Source: Acholeplasmataceae bacterium
Lineage (GTDB): Bacteria > Bacillota_I > Bacilli_A > Acholeplasmatales > Acholeplasmataceae
Length of the DNA: 49,101 bases
Assembly: GCA_016934015.1 (NCBI GenBank)
Contig: JAFGTQ010000021.1
Location: 1 to 49,101 of the forward strand
Direction: 5' to 3'
A model generated the notes under the pieces. The model had not been told where the DNA came from and ran no database searches. It worked only from the letters and a program-made list of their open reading frames with translations. A program made the translations under genes and the position numbers. This document shows positions 3,776 through 39,015 of this stretch, piece by piece. Position 1 is the stretch's first letter. The number at the start of each line of letters is the position of its first letter.

Positions 3776-6256
3776 CTAAATAAAGAGATTATGGTTTGCT
3801 TGCATAGTGTCTGCAAGATAACTAGCAACACCTGCGACTTCAACACCATCAATCAATTCTTCCTCTTTAATTCCCATGATATCCATGGACATCGCACATG
3901 CGACAATTTTAACACCCATAGCTTGCGCATTTGTCATCAATGTTTCTAATGAATCGACATTCTTTTTCTTCATAATCCCTTTGATCATCTTAGGACCCAT
4001 GCCTAACATATTCATGTTAGAAATAGGTAATTTTTTGGTGCCTCTAGGCATCATAAAGCCAAACATTTTTTCAATAAAGGCTTTTTTAACTCTGACCTTT
4101 TTTGCTTTTCTTAAAACATTTAAACCCCAGAATGTGAAGAATAAGGACACATCTTTACCTAAAGATTTAGCACCAGATGCGATAATGAATGCTGCAATTG
4201 CTTTATCTAAATCTTGGCTAAAAACAACAATGGTTGTTCCTGAAGGACCTTCCTTGATTTCATAACCTTGTTTATTTTGCTTAACAGCGCCCTTCTTCAA
4301 ATAAGCAGTAATCACTTTGCCTTCTTTTTCAACATTTAATAGCGTGTTTCCTGTTTTATCTGCCCAAGCTTTAATATCCTTCATGAAGCCTGGATCGGTT
4401 GCTTTAACTTCAAGGATTTCTTGGTCGTTTAACTCCTGCATTGTTTGATATACCTTAACAATAGGACCTGGACACTGTAATCCACAAGCATCAACACTAA
4501 TCTTGACTTTCTTTTCATCAACTACTGGAATTGCTTCTTCCAATGTTTTCAAATTTATGACTGGGACTCCAAGTTCATCAATGAGTGTGAAACAAATTTC
4601 ACTACCATCATGATCATAAACGCAAGAATAAGATTTGAAACCACCATCTAAGTTTTTTACATTAAAACCATGCTGTTTTAACACACGTGCAGCTGTATAT
4701 CCTCTTGTTCCAACATGGCAGTAAACATAAATAGGTTGATCCTTTGGAATTTCATCTAGATGATCACGGAGTTCAGTTAAAGGAATATTAACGGAACCTG
4801 GTAAGTATTCTAACATGTACTCTGCACGCTCTCTTATATCTAAAACAAATGATCCTTTAGCAGCAAGTTCATGCATTTCATTCCATGTAACAGTATCAAC
4901 CATACCTTTTAAAATATTATCTGCAACAAAGCCGATCATATTGACAGGATCTTTAGCTGATGAGAATGGGGGAGCATAGGCTAAATCAATGTTCTTAAGT
5001 GAAGTAATTTTCATTTTTGCGTAAATTGCAGTTGCAATAACATCAATTCGCTTATCAACACCCTCACCACCAACGGCTTGAGCACCATAAATTTCTTCAG
5101 TATTTGGATTGAAAAGTACCTTAAGAGCCATGGGCTCAGCATTCGGGTAATAACTTGCATGTGATGTAGGGTGTATATGAATCGCTTTATAGGGTAAATT
5201 TAATTGTTTTAATGTTTTTTCATTTAAACCTGTAGATGCGATATTAAGCTCTAAAAGTTTAGCTGCTGATGTTGCAAGCGTTCCTTCATAAGTGTCATCA
5301 ATTCCACAAATATGGTTAGCAACAAAACGTCCTTGTTTATTAGCAGGACCTGCTAATGCTGCTAGCATGTGGTTTTTAGATACGATATGTGGCACTTCAA
5401 CAACATCACCAATGGCATAAATATCTGGATCAGTTGTTAACATATGTTCGTTAACCTTAACAGCTCCACGCTCTGTGAGTTCAAGACCTGCATCTTTTGC
5501 TAGTTTATTGTCAGGTTTAACACCAATAGCAAATATAGTCAAGTCTGTCATCACTTTTGTGCCACTTGCTAATGTAATTTGCTTACCTTCTTGATCAAAT
5601 GATTTGACACCATCATTAAGGATTAAAGATATACCTTGTTCAACGATATGTTGATGCATAATTTGTGCCATTTCAAAGTCAAACATATTCATGATTTGAG
5701 GTGCCATTTCAATAAGAGTTACCTTCATACCTAAATGATGTAGATTTTCCATCATTTCAATACCAATAAAACCCCCACCGATCACAGCAACTTTTTTCGG
5801 TTTGTTTTCTTTGATGAATGATTTGATCAAATCCATATCTGGAATGTTACGAAGTGTAAATAAATTTATAGCTTCATTTATTCCTGAAATTGGTGGTTTA
5901 ATTGGTTGAGAACCCGTTGATAAAATCAGTTTGTCATATGTTTCTGTATAGGTTTGATTGGTTTTTAAATCACTAATTTTTATTTCATGACGATTACGAT
6001 CTATCGATAAAACTTCATGAAATGTTCTAACATCAATATTGAATTTTTTTTGCATATCATCAGCTGATTGTACGATTAATGCATCGCGAGAGCTAATTAC
6101 TCCACCAATGTGATATGGTAGACCACAGTTTGCAAAACTAATAAACTCGCCTCTTTCAAAAAGTATAATTTCAGCGAATTCATCTAAACGTCTAAGACGT
6201 GCAGCAGTTGTTGCCCCACCGGCAACTCCTCCAACAATTAGAATTTTCTTTTTCAT
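3776..6256 (-). CDS. CoA-disulfide reductase-like flavoprotein with rhodanese, TusA and DsrE domains
   Basis: Large multi-domain thiol or sulfur redox protein, 826 residues. The start is the ATG at 6256, preceded by GGAGGA; a longer frame upstream lacks such a site. Residues 1 to about 455 form a pyridine-nucleotide disulfide oxidoreductase with FAD motif GGVAGGATTAAR and the single active cysteine in SFANCGLPYHIGG (Cys44), as in CoA-disulfide reductases and NADH oxidases. Next comes a rhodanese domain (about 463-555) with active loop CHVGTRG. A TusA/SirA domain (about 585-655) has CGLQCPGP, and a DsrE/DsrF-like domain runs to the C-terminus. Family knowledge suggests reduction of CoA or persulfide disulfides with NAD(P)H and sulfane-sulfur relay between domains. 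It appears to be a single-gene unit. Confidence 0.9.
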   Translation of the reverse strand: MKKKILIVGGVAGGATTAARLRRLDEFAEIILFERGEFISFANCGLPYHIGGVISSRDALIVQSADDMQKKFNIDVRTFHEVLSIDRNRHEIKISDLKTNQTYTETYDKLILSTGSQPIKPPISGINEAINLFTLRNIPDMDLIKSFIKENKPKKVAVIGGGFIGIEMMENLHHLGMKVTLIEMAPQIMNMFDFEMAQIMHQHIVEQGISLILNDGVKSFDQEGKQITLASGTKVMTDLTIFAIGVKPDNKLAKDAGLELTERGAVKVNEHMLTTDPDIYAIGDVVEVPHIVSKNHMLAALAGPANKQGRFVANHICGIDDTYEGTLATSAAKLLELNIASTGLNEKTLKQLNLPYKAIHIHPTSHASYYPNAEPMALKVLFNPNTEEIYGAQAVGGEGVDKRIDVIATAIYAKMKITSLKNIDLAYAPPFSSAKDPVNMIGFVADNILKGMVDTVTWNEMHELAAKGSFVLDIRERAEYMLEYLPGSVNIPLTELRDHLDEIPKDQPIYVYCHVGTRGYTAARVLKQHGFNVKNLDGGFKSYSCVYDHDGSEICFTLIDELGVPVINLKTLEEAIPVVDEKKVKISVDACGLQCPGPIVKVYQTMQELNDQEILEVKATDPGFMKDIKAWADKTGNTLLNVEKEGKVITAYLKKGAVKQNKQGYEIKEGPSGTTIVVFSQDLDKAIAAFIIASGAKSLGKDVSLFFTFWGLNVLRKAKKVRVKKAFIEKMFGFMMPRGTKKLPISNMNMLGMGPKMIKGIMKKKNVDSLETLMTNAQAMGVKIVACAMSMDIMGIKEEELIDGVEVAGVASYLADTMQANHNLFI

Positions 6257-34557: not shown

Positions 34558-35220
34558 TTAGATATGAAATCTTCGTTTAAACTCTTCACGGCTTGACTTC
34601 GAAGGTAAGATGAAAATTCCTAAGAGTGTAACCACTGCATAAGTGAAGGAAGCTGATGATGGCCAAGTGACAGTTGTAATGTTCAAAAGATTGAATAAAC
34701 CAGGAACTAAACCAATGATCGACATGATCAACAAATTACCAAAGTATTCAAACCATTTTTTTCGGTTAAATATGATTAGGATAGATAATAATAACATATT
34801 CATCAAAAGCGTTAATGGGAATACATAATCAACTGCCCAGCCATAATCATTGATAGCTAACCCTAATAAAATGATTGTGAGACCAGAAACAACCATAATT
34901 TTTGAAATCCTCGATGTCCATGGCGATGCTGGCCACATCATCAAAAACATGACCATAATATAACCATTAGTCACAGCAACAACCCACGACCATGAAAGTT
35001 GTGAACTACCTAAATAATCGACATAGATGGATACTAATGCACTGATAATGTTTAGAAATATAAAAAGGCGATAGAAGAATTGTGCTTTAGGCTTTTTTTG
35101 AATGAGTGAAAATTTATAATATGTTGGTTTATCTTGATCTTCAATGAGTTCATTGTTGCAAAATAAACAGTGTTCTAAATCTGTATCATAGTGGACATGA
35201 CAATTTTTACAATATTTCAT
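34558..35220 (-). CDS. DUF6320-like membrane protein with an N-terminal zinc ribbon
   Basis: 220 residues from the second of two adjacent ATGs (35220), 6 bases after GGGAGGG-type ribosome site. It begins with a zinc ribbon, CKNC near residue 3 and CLFC near 18, followed by about six hydrophobic helices and a basic C-terminus. The pattern of a zinc ribbon plus six membrane helices, next to a condensation-type acyltransferase gene, agrees with DUF6320 proteins. The function is unknown. The gene overlaps the end of the condensation-like gene by 14 bases, so they are cotranslated and probably act together, perhaps on a lipid or an alcohol ester. Confidence 0.7.
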   Translation of the reverse strand: MKYCKNCHVHYDTDLEHCLFCNNELIEDQDKPTYYKFSLIQKKPKAQFFYRLFIFLNIISALVSIYVDYLGSSQLSWSWVVAVTNGYIMVMFLMMWPASPWTSRISKIMVVSGLTIILLGLAINDYGWAVDYVFPLTLLMNMLLLSILIIFNRKKWFEYFGNLLIMSIIGLVPGLFNLLNITTVTWPSSASFTYAVVTLLGIFILPSKSSREEFKRRFHI

Positions 35221-36487
35221 CATAGCCCTCCCGGTAATTCGTATCAAGTGTAACATCGATGCCTTCAGCCACTAAATGTTGAACAAAGAAATTCATGATC
35301 GATAAATCTTTGAGTGGAGAAGCAAGTAATATATTCGTTTTATCATGGATTGAAATACCTGTCATTGCTATTCCATAGCCAGCATTTACAAAATCAGCAT
35401 CTAAAACTTTATGTTTCATACTATCTGGAAGATCAACAATCCCTAAATTCGAGAATGAAACGGTTGAAATCGATTCGCCTAAAATGTTATAACCAATTTT
35501 AAATGCAATAGTTTTAAGTGCTAAAGGTAAAATTCTGATGAAGAAGTTCTTTTCAAAGCCAACAAGTGCACTAATTCGCCCATGTAATATGTTTTTATCA
35601 AGTTGTTCTTTAAACTGGTTTTTGGTCACTTCAAGCATCTCTTCAAAGGTCCATTTTGGTTTATCTGCATCATATGAAGCTTTAATAAATAGTGAGAAGT
35701 TTCTTAATGTAATTGAATCAAAATAAGGTCTTAGATTGACAGGGACTAATGCTTTAATCGGTTTTTTCTTTCCAACAAAATCTAAAGACTCTTTGTAAAT
35801 ACTGTATGCAAAAAGAGCTGTTAAGTACTGAGTGAGTGTGACTTGGTATTTTTCTTTAATCATCGTTATGAATGTTTTTGTATTAAAAGATATTTTAAGG
35901 AGTAAAACCCAATGCCTTCCAAAACTTTCACCCGTAATTTTATAGGCTCGATCTTCTTTTAAATTCAATTTATTTGTTTTATCATAATTGGAAACAAAAT
36001 TATCTTCACTCTCTTTTTTTGAGTAGGGTTTTTCAGATAAAATTTTTCCTTCGGGCGCTATATCAAACCCTCTTAAACGAAAATAAGTGAATGTTATTGA
36101 TTTTAAAAATTGTAAAGCTCCAGAACCATCTGATAAAGCGTGGAAAGTTTCGAGTGTTATTTTATTATCTAAATAATATACTTTAAATAGATAGCCATTA
36201 TTTTGTTCAGGCTTAAAATATTTACAGATTTGTGCGACTTCAGGTTCAACCACAAAATAACGATGATTATGGGAGAAATAGTTCCAAAAAAGTCCATTCT
36301 TTAAAGTAACCGAAAAAGTTTCAAAACGAGGAAGTATTTGATTGACAGCTTGTTCAAGAATATCAGGATCAATAATTTCATCAAGATAAAATGATAAACG
36401 GAAAACATTACTCCGCTCATCTTGAGAAACAGCAGGAAATATTTTAGCTGCATTATCAAGTTTGTACCAGTATTTGCTTTTTCTCAT
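35207..36487 (-). CDS. Condensation-domain / alcohol acetyltransferase-like protein
   Basis: 426 residues from the ATG at 36487, which is preceded by GGAG; a much longer in-frame extension reaches into the divergent promoter and is unlikely to be translated. The fold is that of chloramphenicol acetyltransferase-like condensation enzymes (COG4908 type). The active motif reads HALSDGSG, equal to HxxxDG, near residue 137. The later stretch LVPVNLRPYFDS and SFSNLGIVDLP are typical of this class. It would move an acyl group from CoA to an alcohol or amine, but the substrate is unknown. It pairs with the DUF6320 gene and faces the mhq-like operon across a shared promoter region. Confidence 0.8.
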   Translation of the reverse strand: MRKSKYWYKLDNAAKIFPAVSQDERSNVFRLSFYLDEIIDPDILEQAVNQILPRFETFSVTLKNGLFWNYFSHNHRYFVVEPEVAQICKYFKPEQNNGYLFKVYYLDNKITLETFHALSDGSGALQFLKSITFTYFRLRGFDIAPEGKILSEKPYSKKESEDNFVSNYDKTNKLNLKEDRAYKITGESFGRHWVLLLKISFNTKTFITMIKEKYQVTLTQYLTALFAYSIYKESLDFVGKKKPIKALVPVNLRPYFDSITLRNFSLFIKASYDADKPKWTFEEMLEVTKNQFKEQLDKNILHGRISALVGFEKNFFIRILPLALKTIAFKIGYNILGESISTVSFSNLGIVDLPDSMKHKVLDADFVNAGYGIAMTGISIHDKTNILLASPLKDLSIMNFFVQHLVAEGIDVTLDTNYREGYDEIL

Positions 36488-36514: not shown

Positions 36515-36606
36515 ATTATACCTTTTTTTCATCTTAAAGTCTTCAAGAATGAAACATTTCGAATTCGAAGCATTATCCGTGACTTTGTCATTTAATTTGG
36601 TAAAAT
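36515..36606. promoter_or_regulatory. Divergent promoters with an MhqR-like operator
   Basis: Plus strand: TAAAAT (36601-36606) with extended TG, and GTGACT (36579-36584) as a weak -35, 16 bases apart. Minus strand: TATAAT (36515-36520) for the condensation-like gene. Between them lies TTCGAATTCGAA (36558-36569), a perfect 12-base palindrome with the CGAATTCG core of Bacillus MhqR sites. Confidence 0.6.
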
Positions 36607-36628
36607 AAATAGTGAATGGAGGGATAAG

Positions 36629-37627
36629 ATGAAACCACTTATTGGAATGCACCATGTTACAGCTATGACATCAAGTGCAGAAAAAATTTATGAATTTTTC
36701 ACATATGTTTTAGGTTTAAGACTTGTTAAAAAGACGATTAATCAAGATGATATTCAAGCTTATCATTTGTTTTTTGCTGATGATAGAGGAAGTGCAGGTA
36801 CAGATGTAACATTTTTTGATTTTCCAGGAAATCAAAAAGCAGTTAAAGGTACCAATGAAATTGCGAAAACTGGATTACGTGTTAAAGATAATCAGTCGAT
36901 TGATTATTGGAAAAAAAGATTTGAAAACTTGAAAGTAGCCCATGAAGATATAAAAGAAATATTTGGTCGTAAAGTATTGTTTTTCGAGGATTTTGATGGT
37001 CAAGAATATTATTTAATCTCAGATGAAAATATTAATGGTGTGAAATCAGGGATTCCATGGGATTTAGGACCCATTCCAAATGAATATGCAATCATTGGCT
37101 TAGGACCAATCTATTTTCGTGTCAACGATTTGATGAGAATGGAAAAAGTTTTGACCGAATACTTAACCTTTGAATTTTTGAATCGCGAAGAAAATTTAAC
37201 TATTTATCAAACTGGTGAGGGCGGAAATGGTAGTTCTGTCATTGTTGAAAAAACAATCAATATGTCACAAGGTTATCAAGGTTATGGTGCTATACACCAT
37301 GTAGCATTTGGAGTTTCAGATACTAAAGATATTCATTCATGGACCGATCATTTAAATCAAATTGGTGCGAGACATTCAGGTTTTGTTGACCGTTTCTATT
37401 TTAAATCTTTATATACAAGACTTTATCCTAATATCTTGTTTGAATTTGCAACAGAAGGACCGGGATTTATTGATGATGAAGAACCTTATGAGACACTCGG
37501 AGAACTTTTAGCATTGCCTCCTAAATTTAGAGGAATGCGTGATAAAATCGAAAAGCTTGTTCGCCATATTGATACAAAACGAAGTGACAAAAATTTTAAA
37601 AAGGAGTATTTGAACGATGGAAAATAA
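36629..37627 (+). CDS. Ring-cleaving dioxygenase, MhqO-like
   Basis: VOC-superfamily protein of 332 residues with two tandem glyoxalase-type halves. The N-terminal half opens GMHHVTAMTSSAEKIYEFF (first metal His about residue 8). The second half has GAIHHVAFGVSD (second His, about residue 214) and LFEFATEGPGF (metal Glu). This is the MhqO/YdfO group, which opens hydroquinone-type rings in quinone detoxification. The ribosome site is GGAGGG. It overlaps the MarR gene by 11 bases. Together with the next two genes it forms an mhqO-mhqR-mhqD-like operon. Confidence 0.88.
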   Translation: MKPLIGMHHVTAMTSSAEKIYEFFTYVLGLRLVKKTINQDDIQAYHLFFADDRGSAGTDVTFFDFPGNQKAVKGTNEIAKTGLRVKDNQSIDYWKKRFENLKVAHEDIKEIFGRKVLFFEDFDGQEYYLISDENINGVKSGIPWDLGPIPNEYAIIGLGPIYFRVNDLMRMEKVLTEYLTFEFLNREENLTIYQTGEGGNGSSVIVEKTINMSQGYQGYGAIHHVAFGVSDTKDIHSWTDHLNQIGARHSGFVDRFYFKSLYTRLYPNILFEFATEGPGFIDDEEPYETLGELLALPPKFRGMRDKIEKLVRHIDTKRSDKNFKKEYLNDGK

Positions 37628-38057
37628 TGTTGATTTTAAATTAACTGCGGTTTTATTCCGCGCCATGCAACATGTTCAATCAGTGATTGCTAAAGACATT
37701 GAATCATATGGCTTAAATAGTACTGAATTTGGCACTTTAGAAATGCTTTATCATAAAGGACCAAGAACGATTCAAACCATCTCTAAAAGACTTTTAATGG
37801 CAAATAGTAGTATGACTTATACCATTGATAAACTTGAAAAGAAGAAATATGTTTCACGTTGTAAAGATGATAATGATCGTCGAAATACAGAAATATCATT
37901 AACAAATTCAGGTAAAACATATATTTCAACGATACTAAAAACACATGAAGAAACATTAAGAGAACTGTATAAGATTTTAAATGAAGAAGAAAAACGTTTG
38001 TTGATTGATCTCATGAAGAAACTTGGTTATTATGCAGAAAAACTTAAAGAGGTTTAA
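37617..38057 (+). CDS. MarR family regulator, MhqR-like
   Basis: Winged-helix repressor of 146 residues. The DNA-binding part is TIQTISKRLLMANSSMTYTIDKLEKKKYVSRCKDDNDRRNTEISLT (about 46-91; key parts MANSSMTYTIDKLE and DDNDRRNTE). Helical dimerisation segments lie at both ends. The position between an MhqO-like dioxygenase and an MhqD-like hydrolase, plus the TTCGAATTCGAA palindrome upstream, suggests MhqR, which in Bacillus subtilis represses quinone-response genes. Its cysteine content is low: one cysteine near residue 80, not at the usual sensing place. Confidence 0.85.
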   Translation: MENNVDFKLTAVLFRAMQHVQSVIAKDIESYGLNSTEFGTLEMLYHKGPRTIQTISKRLLMANSSMTYTIDKLEKKKYVSRCKDDNDRRNTEISLTNSGKTYISTILKTHEETLRELYKILNEEEKRLLIDLMKKLGYYAEKLKEV

Positions 38058-38058
38058 G

Positions 38059-38655
38059 ATGAAACATGTTTTTAAACAAGGAACTAATGGTAAAACGATT
38101 GTCTTATTGCATGGAACAGGTGGAAACGAACATGATTTAATTGAAATCGGGTACTTCATCGATCCAGATGCTAATCTATTAGGTATAAGAGGTAATGTAT
38201 TAGAAAATGGGTTACCAAGGTTCTTTAAAAGGCTCTCATTTGGTGTATTCGATGAAGATAATTTGATTGAAGAAACACATCGTCTTCACGAATTTATCGA
38301 TGAATCCATCACAAAATACAAATTAGATCCAGAAAAAATAAGTGCGATTGGTTATTCAAATGGAGCAAACATTCTTGCATCTTTATTACTTTTTCATCCA
38401 AACACGATTCAAAAAGCAATGTGTCTACATGCCATGGTACCTATCAAAAATATTGAAGTGAACAAACATTTAAACACTAAAGCACTTTTAACTTTAGGTT
38501 TAGAAGATCAAATTGTGAATCCTAAAGAAGCATATGAACTAAAAGAAATGCTAGAAATTCGAAATATCAAAGTCGATCTTTTTGAAACACCATATGGCCA
38601 TCAAATCACGAAAATGGAGTTAGATTACTTAAAAAAGTGGTATGATAAAAACTAA
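38059..38655 (+). CDS. Alpha/beta hydrolase, MhqD-like carboxylesterase
   Basis: Serine hydrolase of 198 residues from the ATG at 38059, one base after the MarR stop codon region and preceded by AGAGG. A longer in-frame start within the MarR gene lacks support. It has the oxyanion stretch LLHGTGGNEHDL, the nucleophile elbow GYSNGAN with Ser near residue 100, an Asp in GLEDQIVNP and a His in TPYGHQIT. MhqD/YfhR-type esterases of this size accompany MhqO in quinone resistance operons. Confidence 0.88.
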   Translation: MKHVFKQGTNGKTIVLLHGTGGNEHDLIEIGYFIDPDANLLGIRGNVLENGLPRFFKRLSFGVFDEDNLIEETHRLHEFIDESITKYKLDPEKISAIGYSNGANILASLLLFHPNTIQKAMCLHAMVPIKNIEVNKHLNTKALLTLGLEDQIVNPKEAYELKEMLEIRNIKVDLFETPYGHQITKMELDYLKKWYDKN

Positions 38656-38673: not shown

Positions 38674-38985
38674 ATGTTTAATGTTAGTGCAGAAGATATA
38701 AAACTCGTTAAAGAAAAATATGTTACTTCAATGAATCCTTTCATCATTTCGAATTTTCCTCCAAAAGAGAAACGGAAATATATTTTACTTTGTATGATTG
38801 TTCATTTATTTGAAGATAAAAGACGATATACTGAAAAAGAAGTCAATGAGATTTTAAAATATGTTTATCAAGATTATGCCATCATCCGTAGATACTTAGT
38901 AGAATATCGGTTTATTGATCGGTTAGCTGATGGAAGTGCATATTGGCTTATGATTGATAAAAATGATTATATCCAATATATTTAA
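38674..38985 (+). CDS. DUF2087 family protein
   Basis: Small protein of 103 residues from the ATG at 38674, preceded by AGAGGTGG. An in-frame GTG at 38662 overlaps that site. It fits DUF2087: PFIISNFPPKEKRKYILLCMIVHLF, then RRYTEKEVNEIL and RRYLVEYRFIDRLADGSAYW (key parts FPPKEKRK, YTEKEVNEIL and DRLADGSAYW). This domain looks like a winged helix found at the end of MarR/ArsR-type regulators and alone. Its role here is unknown. It follows the mhqD-like gene by 18 bases and may be the last gene of that operon. Confidence 0.85.
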   Translation: MFNVSAEDIKLVKEKYVTSMNPFIISNFPPKEKRKYILLCMIVHLFEDKRRYTEKEVNEILKYVYQDYAIIRRYLVEYRFIDRLADGSAYWLMIDKNDYIQYI

Positions 38986-38993
38986 AGCCAAAA

Positions 38994-39015
38994 AAGAGGG
39001 AAGAAATTCCCTCTT
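38994..39015. terminator. Bidirectional terminator
   Basis: AAGAGGGAA (38994-39002), loop GAAA, TTCCCTCTT (39007-39015). It ends the mhq-like operon and the convergent SDR gene. Confidence 0.9.

Follow-up and report, generated by a model that had tools for sequence, protein, structure and literature searches.

A probable MhqR-type operator before a dioxygenase–marR–esterase operon in an Acholeplasma-like bacterium

The closest described counterpart of the locus studied here is the mhqRED operon of Staphylococcus aureus, which combines a MarR repressor, a dioxygenase and an esterase. Its published operator is TATCTCGAA-aTCGAaATA (PMC6798810). In Bacillus subtilis, a single MhqR serves multiple scattered targets (azoR2, mhqNOP, mhqED, and mhqA), among them ring-cleaving dioxygenases, an esterase, and a flavin-dependent reductase. 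Related loci occur in Bacillaceae and Caryophanaceae, e.g. Viridibacillus arvi (L101), Perspicuibacillus (L097), and Lysinibacillus composti (L130), with a regulator 45–49% identical to ours and an adjacent dioxygenase (58%) and/or FMN reductase (51–64%); in V. arvi, marR, the dioxygenase gene (58% identical to ours), and the FMN reductase gene (63%) are consecutive. In 60-odd Bacillaceae and allied loci, sites of the TATCTCGAATTCGAGATA type lie 20–70 bp upstream of marR, between marR and its adjoining genes, and also precede the adjoining dioxygenase or FMN reductase genes. Here we describe a locus of this kind in the window, i.e. the whole stretch of 49,101 nt that was analysed, which comes from an Acholeplasmataceae MAG of 77 contigs and 83% completeness. 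It carries the palindrome TTCGAATTCGAA, very probably, as judged from comparative sequence evidence, the site at which the MhqR-type repressor encoded in the operon docks.

The operon lies on the forward strand and starts with a ring-cleaving dioxygenase of the vicinal-oxygen-chelate type, MhqO/MhqE/PcpA-like (36629–37627; PF00903), whose PDB matches are 1zsw (213.9 bits), 3oaj, which is MhqO (156.4 bits), and 4huz (93.3 bits), a 2,6-dichloro-p-hydroquinone dioxygenase. The gene for the MhqR-type MarR-family regulator (37617–38057) shares 11 bp with the dioxygenase gene and is followed by genes for an alpha/beta-hydrolase esterase (38059–38655; PF02230) and, last in the operon, a DUF2087 protein (38674–38985; PF09860; syntenic in genera g1 and g11). 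A terminator-like hairpin is predicted 3′ of the operon for both strands (38994–39015). The esterase scored 147.5 bits against the NCBIfam MhqD model NF047577, short of the curated cut-off of 325, with MhqD still far ahead of rival models; since the B. subtilis match is also below the cut-off, we judge the latter narrow, and the score leads us to call the protein MhqD-like only. An earlier note on this DNA had described an operon with dioxygenase, MarR regulator, and esterase in the mhq manner, and this is the content we found, plus the fourth gene. In contrast to S. aureus mhqRED, the dioxygenase gene comes first and the regulator gene second, and the DUF2087 gene is extra. With the B. subtilis regulon, our locus shares the operator class, known to us through PMC6798810, and the target kinds, as ring-cleaving dioxygenase, esterase, and flavin reductase are all present by domain and PDB matches. 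Here, however, only two loci were found, and the reductase belongs to PF03358 (FMN_red). A plasmid search for the dioxygenase returned only distant relatives, with <60% identity, which is no indication of a recent transfer by plasmid. In one relative, G078, the DUF2087 gene remains with marR although the dioxygenase and esterase genes have been relocated.

SaMhqR served as the MhqR reference, B. subtilis MhqR being absent among the 80 loci kept from the genome scan. It is the best match of the window regulator by sequence (9qdr, 93.7 bits by phmmer; runner-up 48.6) and by fold, ranking first in a Foldseek search with the AlphaFold model (pLDDT 91). In a tree of 111 proteins, the window regulator groups with Acholeplasmataceae and Bacillaceae proteins and SaMhqR, separate from the family's other MarR proteins and from the genome's own second MarR protein; this tree came from a quick search with weak root branch support (45) and weak deep branches, and is compatible with vertical descent. 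The nearest named relative among the matches listed is Acholeplasmataceae bacterium UBA6181, of the Mollicutes, whose regulator is 95% identical. These data bear out the idea of an MhqR-type regulator beyond Bacillus. As for the phrase 'far from Bacillus' in the earlier note, the Mollicutes are indeed another class, but still within the same broader lineage.

The SaMhqR residues S65 and S66, which are essential there for DNA binding (PMC6798810, PMC12893000), and Y69 correspond to S64, S65, and Y68 of the window protein and are invariant in 51 Acholeplasmataceae-side proteins; at the positions of SaMhqR S64 and S68, the window protein has Asn and Thr. Among the wing residues required for DNA binding in SaMhqR, i.e. 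D88, K89, V91, and Y92 (PMC6798810, PMC12893000), D88 is kept while K89 is replaced by Arg, V91 by Asn, and Y92 by Thr, and the wing varies within the family; D88 and R90 are invariant in the 51 proteins. The only cysteine of the window regulator (position 82) is Phe in a 95%-identical relative (L010), and there is no conserved cysteine, in agreement with the non-thiol sensing mechanism of MhqR (PMC6798810). Two Listeria loci (L138 and L152, marR near 4001–4414) encode MhqR-like proteins with the loop ISNGNTTY, in which S66 is replaced by Asn and H111 apparently by Phe. No matching operator was found near marR in these two loci, and their proteins have perhaps diverged in specificity.

The pocket residues F39, E43, and H111 of SaMhqR correspond to F38, E42, and H110 of the window protein and are invariant in the same 51 proteins, as would suit a quinone-like ligand. 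F11, however, is replaced by Thr10 in the alignments. F11 has not been demonstrated as essential in SaMhqR, and single pocket mutants of SaMhqR retained quinone binding (PMC12893000), so conservation of the pocket is no proof of the ligand. These points leave some room for a reading in which this MarR protein does operate at the site but responds to another aromatic compound or electrophile, or serves a catabolic role, and one report ties MhqO-type dioxygenases to lignin-fragment degradation (PMC12673573). We consider such an inducer unlikely, given the three invariant pocket residues and a gene set, namely a hydroquinone-type dioxygenase, an MhqD-like esterase, and an FMN reductase, that is the one known from quinone detoxification.

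The palindrome lies at 36558–36569, exactly where it had been noted beside the operon, and its end is 59 bp upstream of the ATG of the first gene (36629). From the sequence and the cross-genome comparison we propose an 18-bp operator of two 9-bp halves, CATTTCGAA|TTCGAAGCA (36555–36572, without strand). The site, CATTTCGAATTCGAAGCA, has five mismatches to the 18-bp MhqR-type consensus TATCTCGAATTCGAGATA; its outer bases fit poorly, and perfect symmetry is confined to the inner 12 bp. The description of the operator as perfect thus holds for these 12 bp and not for the full 18. The note had given the CGAATTCG core as that of the operator reported for MhqR in B. subtilis; the published S. aureus operator has CGAAaTCG at its centre instead (PMC6798810). 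The 9–9 inverted repeat with its CGAA/TCG centre is present at the target promoters, and the family consensus is that of the MhqR class except at ±6. Two more CGAATTCG cores in the window, at 876 and 9633, have no flanking TT/AA pair and are regarded as chance occurrences.

A consensus scan and the arrangement in relatives place the probable promoter at 36579–36606 on the forward strand, with a −35 element GTGACT (36579–36584) and an extended −10 element TGg-TAAAAT (36598–36606), followed by the ribosome-binding site GGAGGG (36618–36623). Six base pairs separate the −35 element from the end of the operator, and in genus g11 the operator lies ~10 bp upstream of TTGATA-17-TAAAAT. In the FMN reductase promoter of relatives, it occupies the 17 nt that separate TTGATA from TATAAT, a position that fits a repressor. 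Repression is less obvious at the operon of the window, because here the operator is upstream of −35, unlike in S. aureus, where it lies across the start point.

Chance rates were estimated by Markov models from the composition of the window and by a reversed control pattern. In the 1.17 Mb genome, the Markov models predict 0.09–0.24 copies of TTCGAATTCGAA, and two exact copies were observed, one in the window (C19:36558) and one at C11:2316 (L001:1501), 33 bp upstream of a gene for an NADPH-dependent FMN reductase (PF03358). Each copy occupies the promoter region of a quinone-stress-type oxidoreductase gene; all six single-mismatch copies are within long open frames. The assignment of the second site is supported by the recurrence of dioxygenase and FMN reductase targets in Bacillaceae. 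No third convincing target was found in the genome with one to three mismatches, and further ones may be missing because the MAG is 83% complete.

We then compared 88 Acholeplasmataceae genomes, 37 of which carry a regulator orthologue (at least 80 bits). The exact 12-mer occurs at 52 sites in 33 genomes, against five occurrences of the reversed control in five genomes. It is present in 31 of the 37 genomes with the regulator and in 2 of the 51 without it (Fisher p ~2e-15 with kinship ignored, an upper bound on the evidence since relatives do not count as independent). Of the six exceptions, four (G023, G026, G027, and G041) show a site with one mismatch at the corresponding position. Most sites (43/52) are just upstream of the targets, 31 at the dioxygenase operon and 12 at the FMN reductase gene; the remainder are mostly inside coding frames or lack such a neighbour. 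For FMN reductase orthologues (at least 60% identity), the site is present in 12 of 18 genomes with the regulator, leaving six orthologues without it although the genome has the regulator, and in 0 of 6 without the regulator (p = 0.014). The small genomes of genus g12 lack the regulator altogether (0/29) and have a single stray site. Across the class, a search of 296 genomes found the 18-mer TATYTCGAATTCGARATA in 13 genomes with no control matches, the T/A form being the only one to come up, and outside the family seven of the eight exact 18-bp sites precede a dioxygenase–marR pair. The site is thus conserved at the same position before the dioxygenase–marR–esterase operon across the Acholeplasmataceae, and likewise in further families of the class.

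Two further arrangements were seen. In Acholeplasma laidlawii and relatives (L081, L082, L083, L084, and L154, the last from A. laidlawii), a tandem pair of ring-cleaving dioxygenase genes stands before marR and the esterase gene, and a perfect or almost perfect 18-bp TATTTCGAATTCGAAATA operator precedes these operons. At L173:2044 (G034:C25), a full 18-bp TATTTCGAATTCGAAATA lies ~75 bp upstream of the gene for an uncharacterised membrane-anchored protein with a weak, sub-cut-off Peptidase_C92 match, a possible additional target.

The position of the operator also raises the question of the divergent genes. On the reverse strand, a gene for an acyl/alcohol acetyltransferase-like protein (35207–36487), with an HALSDG motif, a weak, sub-cut-off match to PF07247, and conserved synteny, is paired with a DUF6320 gene (34558–35223, also reverse). 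The pair adjoins the mhq-type operon in genera g1, g11, and g13, and has its own TATAAT promoter pointing away from the operon. As the operator lies between the start of the acetyltransferase-like gene and the operon, and between the two divergent promoters, this gene is a possible second target. One might go further and suppose that the MarR protein acts as an activator here, or controls chiefly the acetyltransferase-like gene: the operator is upstream of both −35 regions, a position relative to −35 seen in the window and in genera g10 and g11, and the divergent gene is kept in three genera. Both suppositions seem improbable to us, however: the site still accompanies the dioxygenase in other genera and families that lack the divergent gene, it does so in G078 despite the relocation of marR, and its place in the spacer of the FMN reductase promoter fits repression. 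A site that belongs solely to the divergent gene is rejected for the first of these reasons. A function-less, A+T-rich, self-complementary 12-bp run is rejected as highly improbable: the motif by itself would be unconvincing, as the window contains 16 perfect palindromes 12 bp or longer, together with three CGAATTCG cores, but the same sequence at the same position before the same operon across genera and in other families, its co-occurrence with the regulator, and the near absence of the reversed control pattern are convincing.

The family differs from its relatives at one pair of operator positions. Its consensus is TATTTCGAATTCGAA(A/G)(C/T)A, with a symmetric change from C/G to T/A at ±6 as compared with the operators of S. 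aureus and the Bacillaceae. Acholeplasmataceae-side loci have T/A at ±6 in all 62 half-sites and Asn at the Ser64 position in all 51 proteins, whereas in Bacillaceae and allies Ser64 is found in 61 of 63 proteins and C at ±6 in 75 of 92 half-sites; the operator there is also near marR itself. In SaMhqR, S64 is a predicted base contact, yet the S64A mutant binds normally (PMC6798810, PMC12893000). Because there is one deep split between the two groups, the association of Asn64 with T/A amounts to about one event and is a lead, not proof. It is conceivable, though we lean slightly against it, that regulator and operator have shifted together on the Mollicutes side and that the resulting DNA specificity only partly overlaps with the one of Bacillus MhqR.

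Taken together, our comparative data make it highly likely that an MhqR-type repressor uses the site as operator in a small, autoregulated regulon for quinone or electrophile stress. A dimer of the MarR protein encoded at 37617–38057 would bind TTCGAATTCGAA beside the operon promoter and the second copy in the FMN reductase promoter, thereby holding off both loci. A quinone-like ligand, in the pocket formed by helices 1, 2, and 5 between the dimer interface and the winged helix, would release the repressor. The operon would then yield the ring-cleaving dioxygenase and the esterase, and the second locus the flavin reductase; the dioxygenase may cleave the hydroquinone ring with the assistance of the other two enzymes.

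In the literature searched, which excluded most subscription journals, we found no earlier description of MhqR or an MhqR regulon in Acholeplasma, and nothing relevant on MarR regulons in Mollicutes or on a hydroquinone dioxygenase in Acholeplasma. Our finding extends a known regulator to the Mollicutes and does not describe a new kind of regulator. Binding sites are known for few Mollicutes transcription factors. Confirmation of the present case would add a factor whose operator and two target loci are defined and whose probable signal can be named, and would provide a clear example of a MarR recognition residue and an operator base changing together. Very probably, the quinone-stress circuit of Bacillus and Staphylococcus is also present, with a slightly altered DNA code, in their small-genome Acholeplasma-like relatives. 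Quinone-stress control would then have outlasted genome reduction in these bacteria, with the regulator and its site absent, bar one stray site, from the smallest genomes of the family in genus g12.
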